Origin: a candidate division TA06 bacterium
GTDB taxonomy: Bacteria > Edwardsbacteria > AC1 > EtOH8
NCBI GenBank assembly: GCA_016235665.1
Contig: JACRJI010000003.1
Span: 62,001 to 126,000, forward strand
Reading direction: 5' to 3'
Length of the DNA: 64,000 bases
The position numbers were made by a program, and so were the translations under genes. The notes below the pieces were generated by a model. That model had not been told where the DNA came from. It did not search any database and saw only the letters and a program-made list of their open reading frames with translations. Positions within the stretch are counted from its first letter, which is position 1. Every line of letters starts with the position of its first letter. Below are positions 13,669-32,216 of this stretch, in pieces.

Positions 13669-14151
13669 TTATCTCTTGTATCCTATTTTTCGCAATAGTT
13701 CCTTCCGCCAGGTCCTGCCCGCTTCGTCCTCCACCCCCTTTGGGGAGGAGCCGTCTATCACGCCCATGATGCCCCGGCCCTGCTCGTTTTCGGCAACTAT
13801 CACCTGGCAGGGGTTGGCGGTGGCGCAGAAGATGCGGCAGACCTCGGGGCAGTTTTTGACCGCGTTGAGGACGTTGATGGGGTAGGCGTTCTTCAGGAAG
13901 ATGATGAAGCTGTGTCCGGCCCCGATGGTCTTGGCGTTGTCGACCGCCAGTTTTACCATCTCTTCGTCTGTGCCCTCGGACCTGATCAGGCAGGCTCCGG
14001 AGGCCTCGCAGAAGGCCAGCCCGAACTTAATGCCCGGCACGGCCGAGACCAGTATCTCGTAAAGGTCTTCCACCGTCTTGATGAAGTGGGTCTGCCCCAG
14101 GATGAAGTTAACCTCCTCGGGCTTGGTGATGGAAATTTGTGTTATATTCAT
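13669..14151 (-). CDS. Adenosine-specific kinase family protein
   Basis: 160 aa, full length for the family (Adenosine_kin domain). Recognisable blocks: ITKPEEVNFILGQTHFIKT, GIKFGLAFCEASG, AGHSFIIFLKNAYPINVLNA and the C-terminal RGIMGVIDGSSPKG. Family assignment is by overall pattern; members are small homotrimeric proteins found in archaea and anaerobes whose biological role is poorly defined. It is followed on the same strand by the acyltransferase fusion with a 28-nt gap. Its upstream side faces the AbiE-type island. Confidence 0.88.
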   Translation of the reverse strand: MNITQISITKPEEVNFILGQTHFIKTVEDLYEILVSAVPGIKFGLAFCEASGACLIRSEGTDEEMVKLAVDNAKTIGAGHSFIIFLKNAYPINVLNAVKNCPEVCRIFCATANPCQVIVAENEQGRGIMGVIDGSSPKGVEDEAGRTWRKELLRKIGYKR

Positions 14152-14161
14152 AAAATATCTC

Positions 14162-14191
14162 TTGACAAGAAGTGGTCATTAGGTGTATTAT
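14162..14191 (+). promoter_or_regulatory. Putative promoter of the AbiEi-like gene, overlapping an operator palindrome
   Basis: TTGACA (14162-14167), 18-nt spacer, TATTAT (14186-14191). The -10 box and predicted start site (about 14198) fall inside the 40-bp palindrome at 14181-14220, a classical layout for autorepression. Confidence 0.6.
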
Positions 14192-14220
14192 CATAGTATA
14201 TATACTATGATAATACACCT
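14181..14220. promoter_or_regulatory. Perfect 40-bp palindrome (operator 1 candidate)
   Basis: Every base of the 20-bp left arm pairs with the right arm. The centre is AGTATATATACT (14195-14206), shared with the second palindrome. It covers the -10 box of the putative promoter. In RNA it would be a 20-bp hairpin followed by T5, so a terminator or attenuator role is the alternative. Confidence 0.7.
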
Positions 14221-14247
14221 TTTTAAGAAATACTCTTTATTGAAAGG

Positions 14248-14283
14248 AGATGACTATACAGTATATATACTGTATAGTCATCT
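14248..14283. promoter_or_regulatory. Perfect 36-bp palindrome between Shine-Dalgarno and start codon (operator 2 candidate)
   Basis: Perfect 18-bp arms around the same AGTATATATACT core (14260-14271), centre-to-centre distance 65 bp from operator 1. The best Shine-Dalgarno, AAAGGAG (14243-14249), lies at its left foot and the ATG (14293) 9 nt after its right foot. If it folds in mRNA, the two are brought within normal spacing, so it could act as DNA operator, RNA hairpin, or both. Confidence 0.65.
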
Positions 14284-14292
14284 GATATAAAC

Positions 14293-15168
14293 ATGCGAAA
14301 AAAACAGCTAACAAAACTCATCATCGAAGCCTCGAATACTTTTAAACAATACGGTAAGTACGTTTTAACTTTCACGGAAATAAAAAAAATTATTGACGAC
14401 AACAATGAACGGTGGGGCATTCCTACCAGTAAAAGTTACCGTTCTGTGATTAACGATTTAGTAGAACACACTCCACTTAAAAAATGGGAATTCAGTTTTC
14501 CGGCCCAAAAAGAAATTAAATATACATATGGAGAGGTTTCTGATTTAGAGCTGCTCTCTCTATTGAAAAAAAACAGTTTTTTTTGCTATTACACCGCAAT
14601 GTATCTGCATAATTTAACGGAACAACGCCCAACCACATATTACATCAATGTTGAACAAACGCCTAAGTTTTCTAGTAGTGATAATATTCTTATGCAGGAT
14701 AGAATTGATATGGCATTTAAGAACAAACCCCGTTCAACAAACAACATTGCAGAGTATAAGAACTATAAAATATATATGATAAGCGGTAAAGCTTCACACA
14801 AGCTGGGCGTTATTGATTATAAAAACGATAACATACAAGTTAAGGTAACAGATCTCGAAAGAACATTACTTGATGCCACAGTAAGGCCAGAATATTCGGG
14901 TGGTGTTTTTGAGGTTATGAAAGCATATAAAAATGCCGTGGGTAAAATATCCATAAAAAAATTATATGATTATCTAAAAAAAATGGATTACATTTATCCC
15001 TATCATCAATGTATCGGTTTTTATCTTGAAAAAACAAATCTGGTGAACCAACAAGATTTAAACATCTTCCACAAGAAAGGAATTAAATACAATTTTTACC
15101 TAGCACATGGCTTTAAAAAATTAGACTATTCTGATAGATGGAAGTTATATTATCCTAAAGGTTTTTAA
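14293..15168 (+). CDS. AbiEi-like antitoxin / transcriptional regulator (type IV toxin-antitoxin)
   Basis: 291 aa, AT-rich and Lys/Asn/Ile-rich unlike its neighbours. The N-terminal region (about 1-75) looks like a winged helix (LTFTEIKKIIDDNNERWG...SYRSVINDLVEH). The C-terminal part has the AbiEi hallmark around VKVTDLERTLLDATVRPEYSGG. Known AbiEi proteins repress their own promoter through inverted repeats and counteract the AbiEii nucleotidyltransferase. Two perfect palindromes sit directly upstream. Unlike the usual antitoxin-toxin operon, the partner gene is on the opposite strand; the two 3' ends overlap by 24 bp (15145-15168). Probably acquired horizontally. Confidence 0.82.
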   Translation: MRKKQLTKLIIEASNTFKQYGKYVLTFTEIKKIIDDNNERWGIPTSKSYRSVINDLVEHTPLKKWEFSFPAQKEIKYTYGEVSDLELLSLLKKNSFFCYYTAMYLHNLTEQRPTTYYINVEQTPKFSSSDNILMQDRIDMAFKNKPRSTNNIAEYKNYKIYMISGKASHKLGVIDYKNDNIQVKVTDLERTLLDATVRPEYSGGVFEVMKAYKNAVGKISIKKLYDYLKKMDYIYPYHQCIGFYLEKTNLVNQQDLNIFHKKGIKYNFYLAHGFKKLDYSDRWKLYYPKGF

Positions 15169-16017
15169 CTTAACAATAAAGCTTAAAACATAGTCAAAGT
15201 AAAAATTAAAATCCTTTACTTCTTCTTTGTGATATACCGTGTCCTTTAAAGAATCATAGCCTATTCGATGCATTTCACGGTATTTATGTATTTTTGATAG
15301 TAGCGTAAGTGGTACTTTCTTGGCCTTAAATATATTCCTAATTAACTTTGTATGCGTTAGCGGGTTCCATGAAATATTAATGTTTTCCAATATGGAAAAG
15401 ATGTCAAAGAAATCCCGCGCCCGCTGTTCTTTGTGACTTTTCCCAAAAATCTTGTTGTATTCATCCGTTTGTTGACAAATTGCTCTCAGTTTCTCGAACA
15501 GGATCATCTCGGGACTATATGTAAAAATAACGTACCCTTGCAGATCTCGCTTTATCTTTGTTTCACAATACTCATACTTGCTTATATCTATTGAAAATAT
15601 CTTGTTGTGCTTTGTTGTTAAACTTAGTGCATGCTTTCTTGTTGTATTAATATCTTGTTTGCTGTATTTTTCATTTTGAATTACCTTATATTCTATACGA
15701 TATCCACCCCAGAAAGGCGGTATTCCTGGCATAATTTTCTGTGGACGCTCCCTGAATGAATAATCAAATAATGTGAAGCCTTCAACACTATAGCCCTCTT
15801 TGAGGGCTCTTTTTATTAACACCTTTATCTTTTGGAGACTATAACTGTCTAATGATGTGGAGATCGATAAATCAATATCTAAAGAAGACCTTGATGTAAC
15901 TTTATATACTAGGTTTAAAGCATTGCCACCCTTTAGAACAAATATGTCTCTTAGGGTATCGTCAGAAAAAATTGAAGATACTGCTATCCTTTTAATATTT
16001 TCGACAGTATCTGTCAT
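15145..16017 (-). CDS. AbiEii/AbiGii-family nucleotidyltransferase toxin
   Basis: 290 aa. The nucleotidyltransferase signature is clear: FVLKGGNALNLVYK followed by SRSSLDIDLSIS (D-x-D metal ligands), and later SPEMILFEKLRAICQQ, the conserved downstream helix of the family. AbiEii toxins transfer nucleotides to cellular targets and give phage abortive infection or plasmid stability. The ATG overlaps the parB stop (TAATG), with AAGG 5 nt upstream inside the parB end, so it appears translationally coupled to parB rather than to its antitoxin. Composition is AT-rich, like the facing AbiEi-like gene and unlike parB. Confidence 0.85.
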   Translation of the reverse strand: MTDTVENIKRIAVSSIFSDDTLRDIFVLKGGNALNLVYKVTSRSSLDIDLSISTSLDSYSLQKIKVLIKRALKEGYSVEGFTLFDYSFRERPQKIMPGIPPFWGGYRIEYKVIQNEKYSKQDINTTRKHALSLTTKHNKIFSIDISKYEYCETKIKRDLQGYVIFTYSPEMILFEKLRAICQQTDEYNKIFGKSHKEQRARDFFDIFSILENINISWNPLTHTKLIRNIFKAKKVPLTLLSKIHKYREMHRIGYDSLKDTVYHKEEVKDFNFYFDYVLSFIVKLKTFRII

Positions 16018-16898
16018 TATACCTTTATCTTCAGCCTCTCCATTATCCTTTCAAAATCCTCGGCCGAGTAATACTCAATCTCTATCTTCCCCTGGGCTTT
16101 GCCCTTGGGCACTAATCGGACCTTGGTCCCCAGCGCCCGTTGCATCTCGTTCTGGATGTTGGACAGGTGCTGGTCCAGGTTTTTGTTCTTGGCGGGAACC
16201 GGCCCGGGCGTCTGCTTTCCTGCCTCGCCCCTGGCCTTGGCCTCGGTCTCCCGCACCGAAAGCCCCTTGGCGATTATCTCCCTGGCCAGGGCCGACTGTC
16301 TGGCCGCCCCGACCGCCGTCAATATGGCCCGGGCATGGCCGGCGGAAAGCTTTTCTTCCTCCAGCAATTTTTGGACCTCGGCCGGCAGGGTCAAAAGCCT
16401 TAAGCTGTTGGCCACGGTGGAACGCTCCTTGCCCACCTTTTTAGCCAGGGCCTCCTGGGTCAGGGTGAATTCCTTCTGCAGCCGTTCGTAGCCCTTGGCC
16501 TCGTCCACGGGATTCAGGTTCTCGCGCTGGATATTCTCTATCAGCGCCAGCTCCAAGGCCTCCTGGTCGGTGGCCTGGCGGATGATGGCCGGGATTTCAG
16601 GTAATCCCAGCTTTTGCACCGCCCTAAAGCGGCGCTCGCCGGCGATCAGCTCGTAGCCGGTCCCGCTCCGCCGGACTATCACCGGCTCGATCACGCCCTT
16701 CTCCCGGATGGACTCGGCCAGCTCCGCCAGCGATTCGTCCTTGATGCTGCGGCGGGGCTGAAAGCGGTTGGGCTTGATGTCGCCGACCTTGAGGAACCGC
16801 TCCAGGCCTTCGGGATGGCTGGCCGGTAATATTTTTGTTGTTTTGGCCGGGATCAGGGCCGAAAGCCCCTTGCCCAGCCCGCGTTTGGGTGCAGACAT
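16017..16898 (-). CDS. parB: Chromosome partitioning protein ParB
   Basis: 293 aa; CTP-dependent DNA clamp that loads at parS and organises the origin region. It begins RGLGKGLSALIPAK, carries the CTP-binding motifs (NPFQPRR-type region as NRFQPRRSIKDESL, and AGERRFRAVQKLGL), ENIQRENLNPVDEAKGY and a helix-turn-helix region (TQEALAKKVGKERSTVANS), and ends with the dimerisation segment GKIEIEYYSAEDFERIMERL. The protein looks complete although a toxin gene starts on its last base. Two perfect parS sites are present at 32179-32194 and 32247-32262. ppk2 lies between it and parA. Confidence 0.96.
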   Translation of the reverse strand: MSAPKRGLGKGLSALIPAKTTKILPASHPEGLERFLKVGDIKPNRFQPRRSIKDESLAELAESIREKGVIEPVIVRRSGTGYELIAGERRFRAVQKLGLPEIPAIIRQATDQEALELALIENIQRENLNPVDEAKGYERLQKEFTLTQEALAKKVGKERSTVANSLRLLTLPAEVQKLLEEEKLSAGHARAILTAVGAARQSALAREIIAKGLSVRETEAKARGEAGKQTPGPVPAKNKNLDQHLSNIQNEMQRALGTKVRLVPKGKAQGKIEIEYYSAEDFERIMERLKIKV

Positions 16899-17032: not shown

Positions 17033-17851
17033 CTATTTTACCACTATCTTCTTGGGATCAAAGTCCGGCTTGGGGAACTTCATGTTCAGCCCTTCCAGCG
17101 ATTCCACGATGATCTGGGAGATGGCCAGGTTGCGGAACCATTTTTTGTCGGCCGGGATCACGAACCAGGGGGCCTGCTTGGTGCTGCAGTTGGAGAGGGC
17201 CGCCTCGTAAGCCTTCTGGTAATCGTTCCACTTGGCCCGTTCCTTAAGGTCCTCGGGGTTCATCTTCCAGTTCTTGGTGGGATCCTGCAGCCTGGCCTCC
17301 AGCCGCTCCTTCTGCTCCTGCTTGCTGATGTGCAAAAAGAATTTCAGCACCACATAATTGTTGCCGGCCAGCATTTTTTCAAAATCGTTGATCTGGCCGT
17401 AGCGTTCCGACCAGACCTCCTTGGGAACCAGATTGTGGACCCTCACTATCAGCACGTCCTCGTAGTGCGAGCGGTTGAAGATGCCGATGTCCCCCTTGGG
17501 CGGCACGTTGTGGTGGATGCGCCACAGGTAGTCGTGGTCCAGCTCCACCGAGTTGGGGGCCTTGTAGGAGACTATCTTGCAGCCCTGGGGGTTCACCCCC
17601 CGCATCACCTGGCGCACGGTGCCGTCCTTGCCGCAGGCGTCCATACCCTGCAGCACTATCAGCAGGCCGTATTTGTTCTGGGCGTACAACAGATATTGAA
17701 GCTCGGCCATCCGTTTCTGGTTCTTCTCCAATAGCTTTACGGCCTGTTCCTTGTCCTTGAACCCCAAAGTATCGCCGGGCTTGATCTTTTCCAGGTTCAC
17801 TTTTTTACCGGGCTTGATCAAAAGTTTGGACGAAAGTTTTTTCGGGTCCAT
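17033..17851 (-). CDS. ppk2: PPK2-family polyphosphate:nucleotide phosphotransferase
   Basis: About 272 aa. Transfers phosphate between polyphosphate and nucleoside mono- or diphosphates. Motifs: Walker A-like LQGMDACGKDGTVRQV, Walker B region GIFNRSHYEDVLIVRV, and the N-terminal LEKNQKRMAELQYLLYAQ helix. The C-terminus has WFVIPADKKWFRNL. ATG at 17851 is chosen because GGAGGG lies just upstream; an ATG at 17887 lacks such a site. It is inserted between parA and parB, which are normally adjacent, with only a 49-bp gap after parA. Class I (NMP/NDP) versus other classes is not decided. Confidence 0.92.
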   Translation of the reverse strand: MDPKKLSSKLLIKPGKKVNLEKIKPGDTLGFKDKEQAVKLLEKNQKRMAELQYLLYAQNKYGLLIVLQGMDACGKDGTVRQVMRGVNPQGCKIVSYKAPNSVELDHDYLWRIHHNVPPKGDIGIFNRSHYEDVLIVRVHNLVPKEVWSERYGQINDFEKMLAGNNYVVLKFFLHISKQEQKERLEARLQDPTKNWKMNPEDLKERAKWNDYQKAYEAALSNCSTKQAPWFVIPADKKWFRNLAISQIIVESLEGLNMKFPKPDFDPKKIVVK

Positions 17852-17900
17852 TACGCCCTCCGTTTTGGTTGGGACATGGCATGCCATGTCTTTGCTTGAT

Positions 17901-18680
17901 TTATCTATGTTCCTTTGTTTTTTCGGCTTTCACTATCTCCCGGGCCAGGCTCAAGTATCCCTGCGCCCCCTGGGAGTTGACGTCGTAAAGGATGATCGGT
18001 TTGCCGTGGGACGGGGCCTCGGCCAGCCGCACACTGCGGTTGATCACGGCCTTGTAGACCTTCTCCGGAAAGTGCTTGTGCAGTTCGTCGGCCACCTGCT
18101 GGGCCAGATTCAGCCGGCTGTCGAACATGGTCAGAAGGATCCCCTCCAGTTCCAGCGCCGGGTTGAGTCCCTCTTTCACCAGGTCAAAGGTGTTCATCAG
18201 CTGGCCCAGCCCCTCCAGCGCGTAGTACTCGGCTTGGAGCGGGATCAGCACGCTGTGGGCCGCCGTCAGCGCGTTGATGGTCAGCAGGCCCAGGCTGGGC
18301 GGGCAGTCAATTACTATGTACTGAAACTTTTCGGCCGCCGCTTCCACCAAAGGCTTAAGCAGGAACTCCCGGCCCTGGCGCTCCACCATCTCTACCTCGG
18401 CCCCGGCCAGGTCTATCTGAGAGGGGGCCAGCATAAGTTTGGGCAAAGCGGTCGGCAGGATGATCCCGGCCAGCGGGATCTCCTCCATCAGCGCGTCGTA
18501 GATGCCCCGCTCCACCTGTGATTTGTCCTGGCCCAGCCCGCTGGTGGCGTTGGCCTGGGGATCCAGGTCCACCAGCAGGGTGGTCTTCTCCAGCACCGCC
18601 AGGCTGGCGGCCAGATTGATGGCGGTGGTGGTCTTTCCCACCCCGCCCTTTTGGTTGGCTACGGCTATTATTTTTGTCAT
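17901..18680 (-). CDS. parA: Chromosome partitioning ATPase ParA (Soj)
   Basis: 259-aa Walker-type ATPase that works with ParB in origin segregation and can modulate DnaA. It begins with the deviant Walker A in IIAVANQKGGVGKTTTAINL, has the LVDLDPQANATSGLG motif and VIDCPPSLGLLTINAL. Length and motifs are those of chromosomal Soj-type ParA. The gene faces the barrel-protein gene; the 190-bp divergent region is AT-rich and contains GGTATAATA-like -10 candidates on its strand. Confidence 0.97.
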   Translation of the reverse strand: MTKIIAVANQKGGVGKTTTAINLAASLAVLEKTTLLVDLDPQANATSGLGQDKSQVERGIYDALMEEIPLAGIILPTALPKLMLAPSQIDLAGAEVEMVERQGREFLLKPLVEAAAEKFQYIVIDCPPSLGLLTINALTAAHSVLIPLQAEYYALEGLGQLMNTFDLVKEGLNPALELEGILLTMFDSRLNLAQQVADELHKHFPEKVYKAVINRSVRLAEAPSHGKPIILYDVNSQGAQGYLSLAREIVKAEKTKEHR

Positions 18681-32097: not shown

Positions 32098-32178
32098 TTT
32101 TATGCCCTAAAGTTAAAGGTGAAATGATGGGTTAATTATAAAACTTAATCCATTAAATGTCAAACAAAAACCGGCGAT

Positions 32179-32194
32179 TGTTTCACGTGAAACA
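32179..32194. other. parS: parS site 1 (ParB nucleation site)
   Basis: TGTTTCACGTGAAACA, a perfect 16-bp match to the chromosomal parS consensus, extended to a 26-bp palindrome (32174-32199). ParB and ParA are encoded at 16.0-18.7 kb. Confidence 0.95.
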
Positions 32195-32216
32195 ATCGCG
32201 CCGGAACAAAACAAAA

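Follow-up and report, generated by a model that had tools for sequence, protein, structure and literature searches.

A tail-to-tail AbiEi/AbiEii toxin-antitoxin pair with twin perfect palindromes at the antitoxin promoter in a candidate division TA06 bacterium

Analysing a 64,000-nucleotide stretch of the genome of a candidate division TA06 bacterium (assembly GCA_016235665.1, contig JACRJI010000003.1, positions 62,001 to 126,000; hereafter the window, to which all coordinates refer), we characterized a pair of convergent genes encoding a putative AbiEi-type antitoxin and autorepressor (14293-15168, + strand, 291 amino acids) and a predicted AbiEii nucleotidyltransferase toxin (15145-16017, - strand, 290 amino acids). 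Open reading frame coordinates bore out the convergence noticed in a preliminary description of the locus, with a 3'-3' overlap of exactly 24 base pairs (bp) at 15145-15168 that holds both stop codons, the AbiEii stop TAA lying opposite the TTA leucine codon of the AbiEi C-terminus LYYPKGF-stop. Its statements that AbiEii is not co-transcribed from the AbiEi promoter, and that both genes are AT-rich amid GC-rich neighbours, were also upheld, with a GC content of 0.32-0.35 at 14-16 kb vs 0.54-0.60 in the flanking kilobases. Recognized by this drop and by empty sites in relatives, the inserted AT-rich module (14152-16017) lies between parB and an adenosine-specific kinase gene, and a scan of this region detected no terminator-like site between the AbiEi and AbiEii genes.

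Sequence profiles and predicted structures both assigned the two proteins to the AbiE type, as had been proposed. The AbiEi-like protein gave a marginal Pfam match (AbiEi_1, 0.021, under the AbiEi_1 cut-off) and a clear AbiEi match in PADLOC (5.2e-25), and AbiEii matched PF08843 (5.7e-21). AlphaFold2 models built from alignments of 58 rows for AbiEi and 55 rows for AbiEii reached predicted local distance difference test scores of 95.8 and 93.0, respectively. With Foldseek, the AbiEi model had as top PDB match the Streptococcus agalactiae AbiEi (6y8q, E 3e-7, prob 1.00), followed by Rv2827c (1zel), and the AbiEii model matched MenT3/TglT (Rv1045, E 3e-10, prob 1.00), so that the objection of a wrong fold, raised beforehand as a way to refute the assignment, fails. 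The toxin is hence described as a DUF1814/AbiEii nucleotidyltransferase whose motifs LKGGxA...RxSxDxD...D...EKxRAxCQ...RxxDxxDI are conserved and intact (invariant columns K29, G30, G31, R43, S45, D47, D49, E175, K176 and D202), and the N-terminal winged helix and antitoxin domain of AbiEi are recognized through PADLOC and fold. The co-directional bicistronic operon with the antitoxin first, another trait of AbiE systems, is not found here, the genes being convergent.

Relatives of the pair revealed that this layout is widespread. A genome scan with the single AbiEi query returned 0 matches, and a profile scan was needed to find relatives; combining tblastn on plasmids with a profile-based scan of GTDB genomes and additional searches, we classified 116 loci, among which 92 were convergent, 4 divergent and 1 co-directional, the remaining 19 having no AbiEii in reach (several of them being cut by contig ends). 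The search for convergent AbiEi/AbiEii neighbours suggested in the preliminary description thus gave an affirmative answer. On plasmids, tblastn detected tail-to-tail neighbours in Brevibacillus, Burkholderia, Paraburkholderia, Hymenobacter, Bacillus, Planococcus, Staphylococcus, Macrococcus, Chryseobacterium, Flavobacterium, Riemerella, Veillonella and Phycisphaera. Convergent members came from about fifteen phyla in all: Planctomycetota, Pseudomonadota, Bacillota, Bacteroidota, Chlorobiota, Chloroflexota, Acidobacteriota, Actinomycetota, Myxococcota, Thermodesulfobacteriota, Zixiibacteriota, Binatota, Aminicenantes, Shapirobacteria and UBP16. Sampled prevalence was 12/392 in Planctomycetota, 4/396 in Bacteroidota, 6/399 in Burkholderiales (three of them strong), 23/205 in Hymenobacteraceae and 7/341 in Sphingobacteriaceae; no match was obtained in phage records, and one in viral contigs. 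The divergent pairs, which come from streptococci, Lactococcus, S. aureus and L. plantarum plasmids, group in a single clade (96/75) whose sister is convergent. AbiEi and AbiEii distances were strongly correlated (Mantel r = 0.81, the maximum of 2000 permutations being 0.215). Compared over these genomes, the tail-to-tail order is the native form of a distinct, co-inherited AbiE branch.

The overlap itself is a recurrent feature of this branch. Among 89 measurable convergent pairs it measured 24 bp in 42, 4 bp in 8 and 27 bp in 7, the others ranging widely between an overlap of 81 bp and a gap of 41 bp. In pairs overlapping by 24 bp, the stop codon of the toxin faces the leucine codon of the AbiEi C-terminal motif (R/K)LxxPxGF-stop, and the 27-bp class keeps the same register with an AbiEi one residue longer. 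Because convergent overlap, often of exactly 24 bp, recurs over about fifteen phyla, the overlap is not attributable to chance.

Upstream of abiEi lie two perfect palindromes, each equal to its own reverse complement: palindrome 1 (14181-14220, 40 bp, AGGTGTATTATCATAGTATATATACTATGATAATACACCT) and palindrome 2 (14248-14283, 36 bp, AGATGACTATACAGTATATATACTGTATAGTCATCT), whose only contiguous stretch in common is the core AGTATATATACT. No other perfect palindrome in the 64 kb is as long, a parS site ranking third, and arms reach 6 bp at most when the region is shuffled. The best predicted promoter of the region, the sigma70-type P1 (14162-14191, + strand), combines TTGACA (14162-14167), an 18-bp spacer and TATTAT (14186-14191), matching the consensus at 11/12 positions, a match to consensus only; its -10 box falls within palindrome 1, and palindrome 2 overlaps a weak second predicted promoter, P2 (14250-14278). 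This arrangement, over P1 and near P2, differs from the 23-3-23 repeats of AbiE. Counting perfect palindromes whose arms measure 11 bp or more and that lie no farther than 330 bp from the AbiEi start, we found at least one in 122/141 family loci and two or more in 88/141, with an arm length peak at 14 bp. The longest, at locus L166, reaches 60 bp, and palindromes of 54 bp (L090) and 52 bp (L063) also occur, those of L166 and L063 standing at AbiEi genes without a detected AbiEii. Upstream of AbiEii, palindromes occurred in 1/112 convergent loci, the sole exception being L080, which has palindromes of 32 and 30 bp ahead of its toxin gene in addition, and in divergent pairs they occupy the intergenic region between the two genes. 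Among control AbiEii loci, of which 30 were from Burkholderiales and 2 from this genome, 0/32 held a palindrome anywhere in the stretch examined. The window pair therefore displays the features of the convergent branch: tail-to-tail genes, an overlap of a few to ~40 bp and twin perfect palindromes on the AbiEi side only. Across the family, the -35/-7 promoter boxes keep a fixed distance to the palindromes and read TTGAC mostly 50 to 37 bp before the palindrome centre, or an alternative, Bacteroidota-like TAnnTTTG 27 to 19 bp before it; these positions place the predicted start site inside the left arm, so that the distal copy would not be wholly transcribed. A helical phasing of palindrome spacing (R 0.23-0.30) is not claimed, as this value is dominated by close Hymenobacter relatives.

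The arms of these palindromes covary. In a set anchored on the core only, which after clustering at 65% identity and keeping a single member of each cluster comprised 157 palindromes from 75 loci, arm complementarity at 10, 11, 12, 13 and 14 bp from the centre was 100, 98, 96, 94 and 85%, vs 27-31% expected for independent arms, then dropped to 59% at 15 bp and to background beyond. Copies within one locus agreed at positions 10-14 in 38% of cases vs 27% by chance, and where they differed both arms had changed in 302 cells and one arm in 29. Distal and proximal copies were equally symmetric. Mismatches at positions 10-14 were G.T or T.G in 5/41 cases, and in 9/95 in a wider set, with no G-U excess, which together with start sites in the left arm argues against RNA hairpins and for a requirement at the DNA level. 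Palindromes were well conserved among close species, and in Hymenobacter loci they were identical while the spacer between them diverged strongly; paired arm changes were observed between the close relatives L020/L060, L019/L062 and L181/L184.

The module is bordered by two host genes, parB (16017-16898, - strand; Pfam ParB_N, HTH_ParB and ParB_C), the upstream neighbour of abiEii, and, on the far flank, an adenosine-specific kinase gene (13669-14151, - strand; PF04008, 3.1e-79). In 5/9 relatives checked (L006, L010, L013, L014 and L008) parB is directly followed by the kinase gene, and L006, from the same genus and with a ParB identity of 97%, has the empty site. Ten genomes of this small phylum were covered, and searches of the nine others found neither AbiEi nor AbiEii. 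The transfer suspected from base composition in the preliminary description is thereby supported, and the comparison indicates that the AbiE pair is horizontally acquired and inserted between parB and the kinase gene. In the window parB ends with ...AAGGTATAATG, its stop TAA overlapping the AbiEii ATG (TAATG). Because of this overlap and of an AAAGG (16026-16022) a few nucleotides upstream inside the parB 3' end, the toxin looks translationally coupled to parB (predicted site 16015-16026, - strand, with the ATG at 16017-16015). Neither this junction nor palindromes 1 and 2, the most unusual part of the locus, had been remarked in the preliminary description. The 11 codons further upstream hold no in-frame ATG, GTG or TTG. 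A truncation of the AbiEii N-terminus by the junction was suspected because some homologues begin up to ~11 codons earlier, and was rejected, since the N-termini of AbiEii from L024, L026, L027 and L030 are about as long. In L007, of the same genus, the corresponding junction carries another stretch after parB, from position 2386 of that locus onward, lower in GC and with broken frames; this hints that insertions recur at the parB 3' end.

Other features of the par region and of the genome complete this picture. Between parA (17901-18680) and parB lies a gene (17033-17887) that we take to be polyphosphate-kinase-2-like, an unusual guest in a par cluster that also adjoins parB in L006. The consensus parS TGTTTCACGTGAAACA (32179-32194) is held in a 26-bp perfect palindrome (32174-32199), at a distance of about 11 kb to dnaA and 15 kb to parB. 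A co-directional antitoxin elsewhere in the genome, which had been named beforehand as a finding that would speak against the pairing, does exist: contig 4 (L001, 635-2184) carries a canonical co-directional AbiEi/AbiEii operon with a 4-bp overlap, close to ribosomal protein genes. Its AbiEi, however, shows no detectable relation to the present family (hhalign prob 0.5%) and is therefore an unlikely partner, so that it was rejected as the antitoxin source. A third AbiEii-family nucleotidyltransferase-like gene, with no evident AbiEi partner, lies on contig 9 (L003, 1351-2100).

Taken together, we consider it fairly probable that the locus is an acquired type IV AbiE pair of the convergent branch, in which AbiEi represses its own synthesis at the twin palindromes and the toxin is expressed separately. 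Judging from position and family, AbiEi would bind the palindromes over the -10 and start-site region of the tandem promoters. Repression of this kind is documented for the S. agalactiae AbiEi, which acts through imperfect 23-bp inverted repeats of its promoter (PMC3985639), and for the S. suis AbiEi, acting at palindromic repeats (PMC11062541), and Rv2827c binds two pairs of inverted repeats (PMC7319586). The toxin would be made independently from the opposite strand, here through translational coupling to parB, and would act on a component of translation, e.g. transfer RNA, whose modification would block growth; as in the rest of the family, AbiEi would neutralize it and protect the cell, and a fall in AbiEi would derepress the promoters and restore the antitoxin. 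Polymerases leaving the AbiEi gene might also meet the toxin gene head-on from its 3' end and damp its expression, a collision or antisense effect that is consistent with the layout but is the least certain, speculative step. Several observations weigh against this account. The outer arms are free in sequence while their complementarity is kept, a pattern that an ordinary dimeric operator does not predict; 13% of AbiEi starts lack a perfect palindrome whose arms reach 11 bp; and about ten AbiEi genes without a nearby AbiEii often keep their palindromes, so that AbiEi may also function without a partner. The conserved overlap may likewise reflect, in part, a coding lock-in, because the toxin stop faces a leucine codon of the conserved AbiEi C-terminal motif.

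The leading alternative, unproven at present, is a requirement for a DNA hairpin or cruciform, extruded under supercoiling or in single-stranded DNA and recognized by AbiEi or another factor, making the antitoxin promoter a switch that senses DNA structure, e.g. supercoiling, replication or the junction-cleaving enzymes of an invading phage. The near-complete arm complementarity with its sharp drop at 15 bp, the low agreement between copies of one locus with predominantly paired changes, a core (TATATA) that melts easily, a single-strand DNA folding z of -12.4 and perfect palindromes of up to 60 bp all favour it. Perfect palindromes are, however, also good dimer sites, their position over the -10 box and start suits a plain operator, and they are well conserved among close species, so that we regard this structural explanation as possible but rather unlikely. 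We are equally tentative about its fuller form, in which the twin palindromes would be kept for intrastrand DNA base pairing and not for their sequence, and the toxin, placed head-on, would also be restrained by antitoxin transcription. Hairpins formed instead in the RNA of the abiEi leader, controlling translation or RNase III processing, seem improbable. In a transcript from P1, palindrome 2 would indeed fold into a strong hairpin (z -6.0; 14243-14295) placing AAAGGA about 10 nucleotides from the AbiEi ATG, but the lack of a G-U excess, the equal symmetry of a distal copy that predicted starts leave partly untranscribed and the absence of an Rfam match all speak against them. Transcripts from P2 would be nearly leaderless, and the arrangement of AAAGGA and hairpin is not general in the family.

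Two further explanations were considered. Template switching between arms could keep the palindromes perfect without selection for symmetry, and the paired changes in the three pairs of close relatives speak for it; yet the stability of Hymenobacter palindromes beside a diverging spacer argues against a purely mutational upkeep, as do the control AbiE loci without palindromes and a toxin side that practically lacks them, and we find this explanation very improbable. Almost no credence is left for a single local event in this genome that rearranged a canonical abiEi-abiEii operon, the reading of the preliminary description, which saw the genes as rearranged and detached from each other. Canonical AbiE operons are co-directional (PMC3985639), including the one on contig 4, but convergence in 92/116 loci over about fifteen phyla, with co-diverged proteins, refutes it.

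An AbiE branch of about fifteen phyla thus breaks the rule of co-directional operons in a well-studied family of phage defence and addiction, in which the regulator gene is described as coming before the nucleotidyltransferase gene (Dy et al., PMC3985639). No description of convergent AbiE was found in the literature searched, most subscription journals and preprints lying outside that search, and two large toxin-antitoxin surveys took co-directed neighbours only (Makarova et al., PMC2701414; TASmania, restricted to one strand, PMC6504116). With the toxin outside the operator of the antitoxin, a different regulatory logic is needed. Covariation with free sequence, moreover, normally marks a folded nucleic acid, and is here found at the DNA level, over a promoter; if the structural explanation were true, this would be a toxin-antitoxin family whose antitoxin gene is under a DNA-structure switch.

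Among known systems, the type IV AbiE of S. agalactiae (SAG1284/SAG1285; Dy et al. 2014, PMC3985639) has the same AbiEi fold with an N-terminal winged helix, an AbiEii/DUF1814 nucleotidyltransferase and inverted repeats over the antitoxin promoter. By contrast, its genes are co-directional, with a 4-nucleotide overlap and a single operon promoter, whereas here they are convergent and the toxin has no operator; its repeats IR1 and IR2 measure 23 bp, contain 4 mismatches and have an N3 spacer, in place of two separate perfect palindromes of 36-40 bp. In Mycobacterium tuberculosis, MenAT3/TakA-TglT (Rv1044-Rv1045) contains the closest fold to AbiEii, MenT3 (Foldseek E 3e-10), and the MenA-type Rv2827c-Rv2826c provides the second fold match of AbiEi, a protein that binds repeats (PMC7319586), but these systems are co-directional operons with imperfect 23-bp repeat pairs separated by a 13-bp gap, and their sequence relation is remote. 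AbiGI/AbiGII (PDB 9hlo) is the best PDB profile-search match for both proteins, although described as a bicistronic operon and not convergent, and many AbiE proteins are misannotated as AbiG (Dy et al., PMC3985639). Type I loci with convergent or antisense genes share the possible overlap of opposite-strand transcripts; their antitoxin is an RNA, however, whereas both partners are here conserved proteins. Being convergent and not a co-directional operon, the pair is set apart as a variant AbiE branch.

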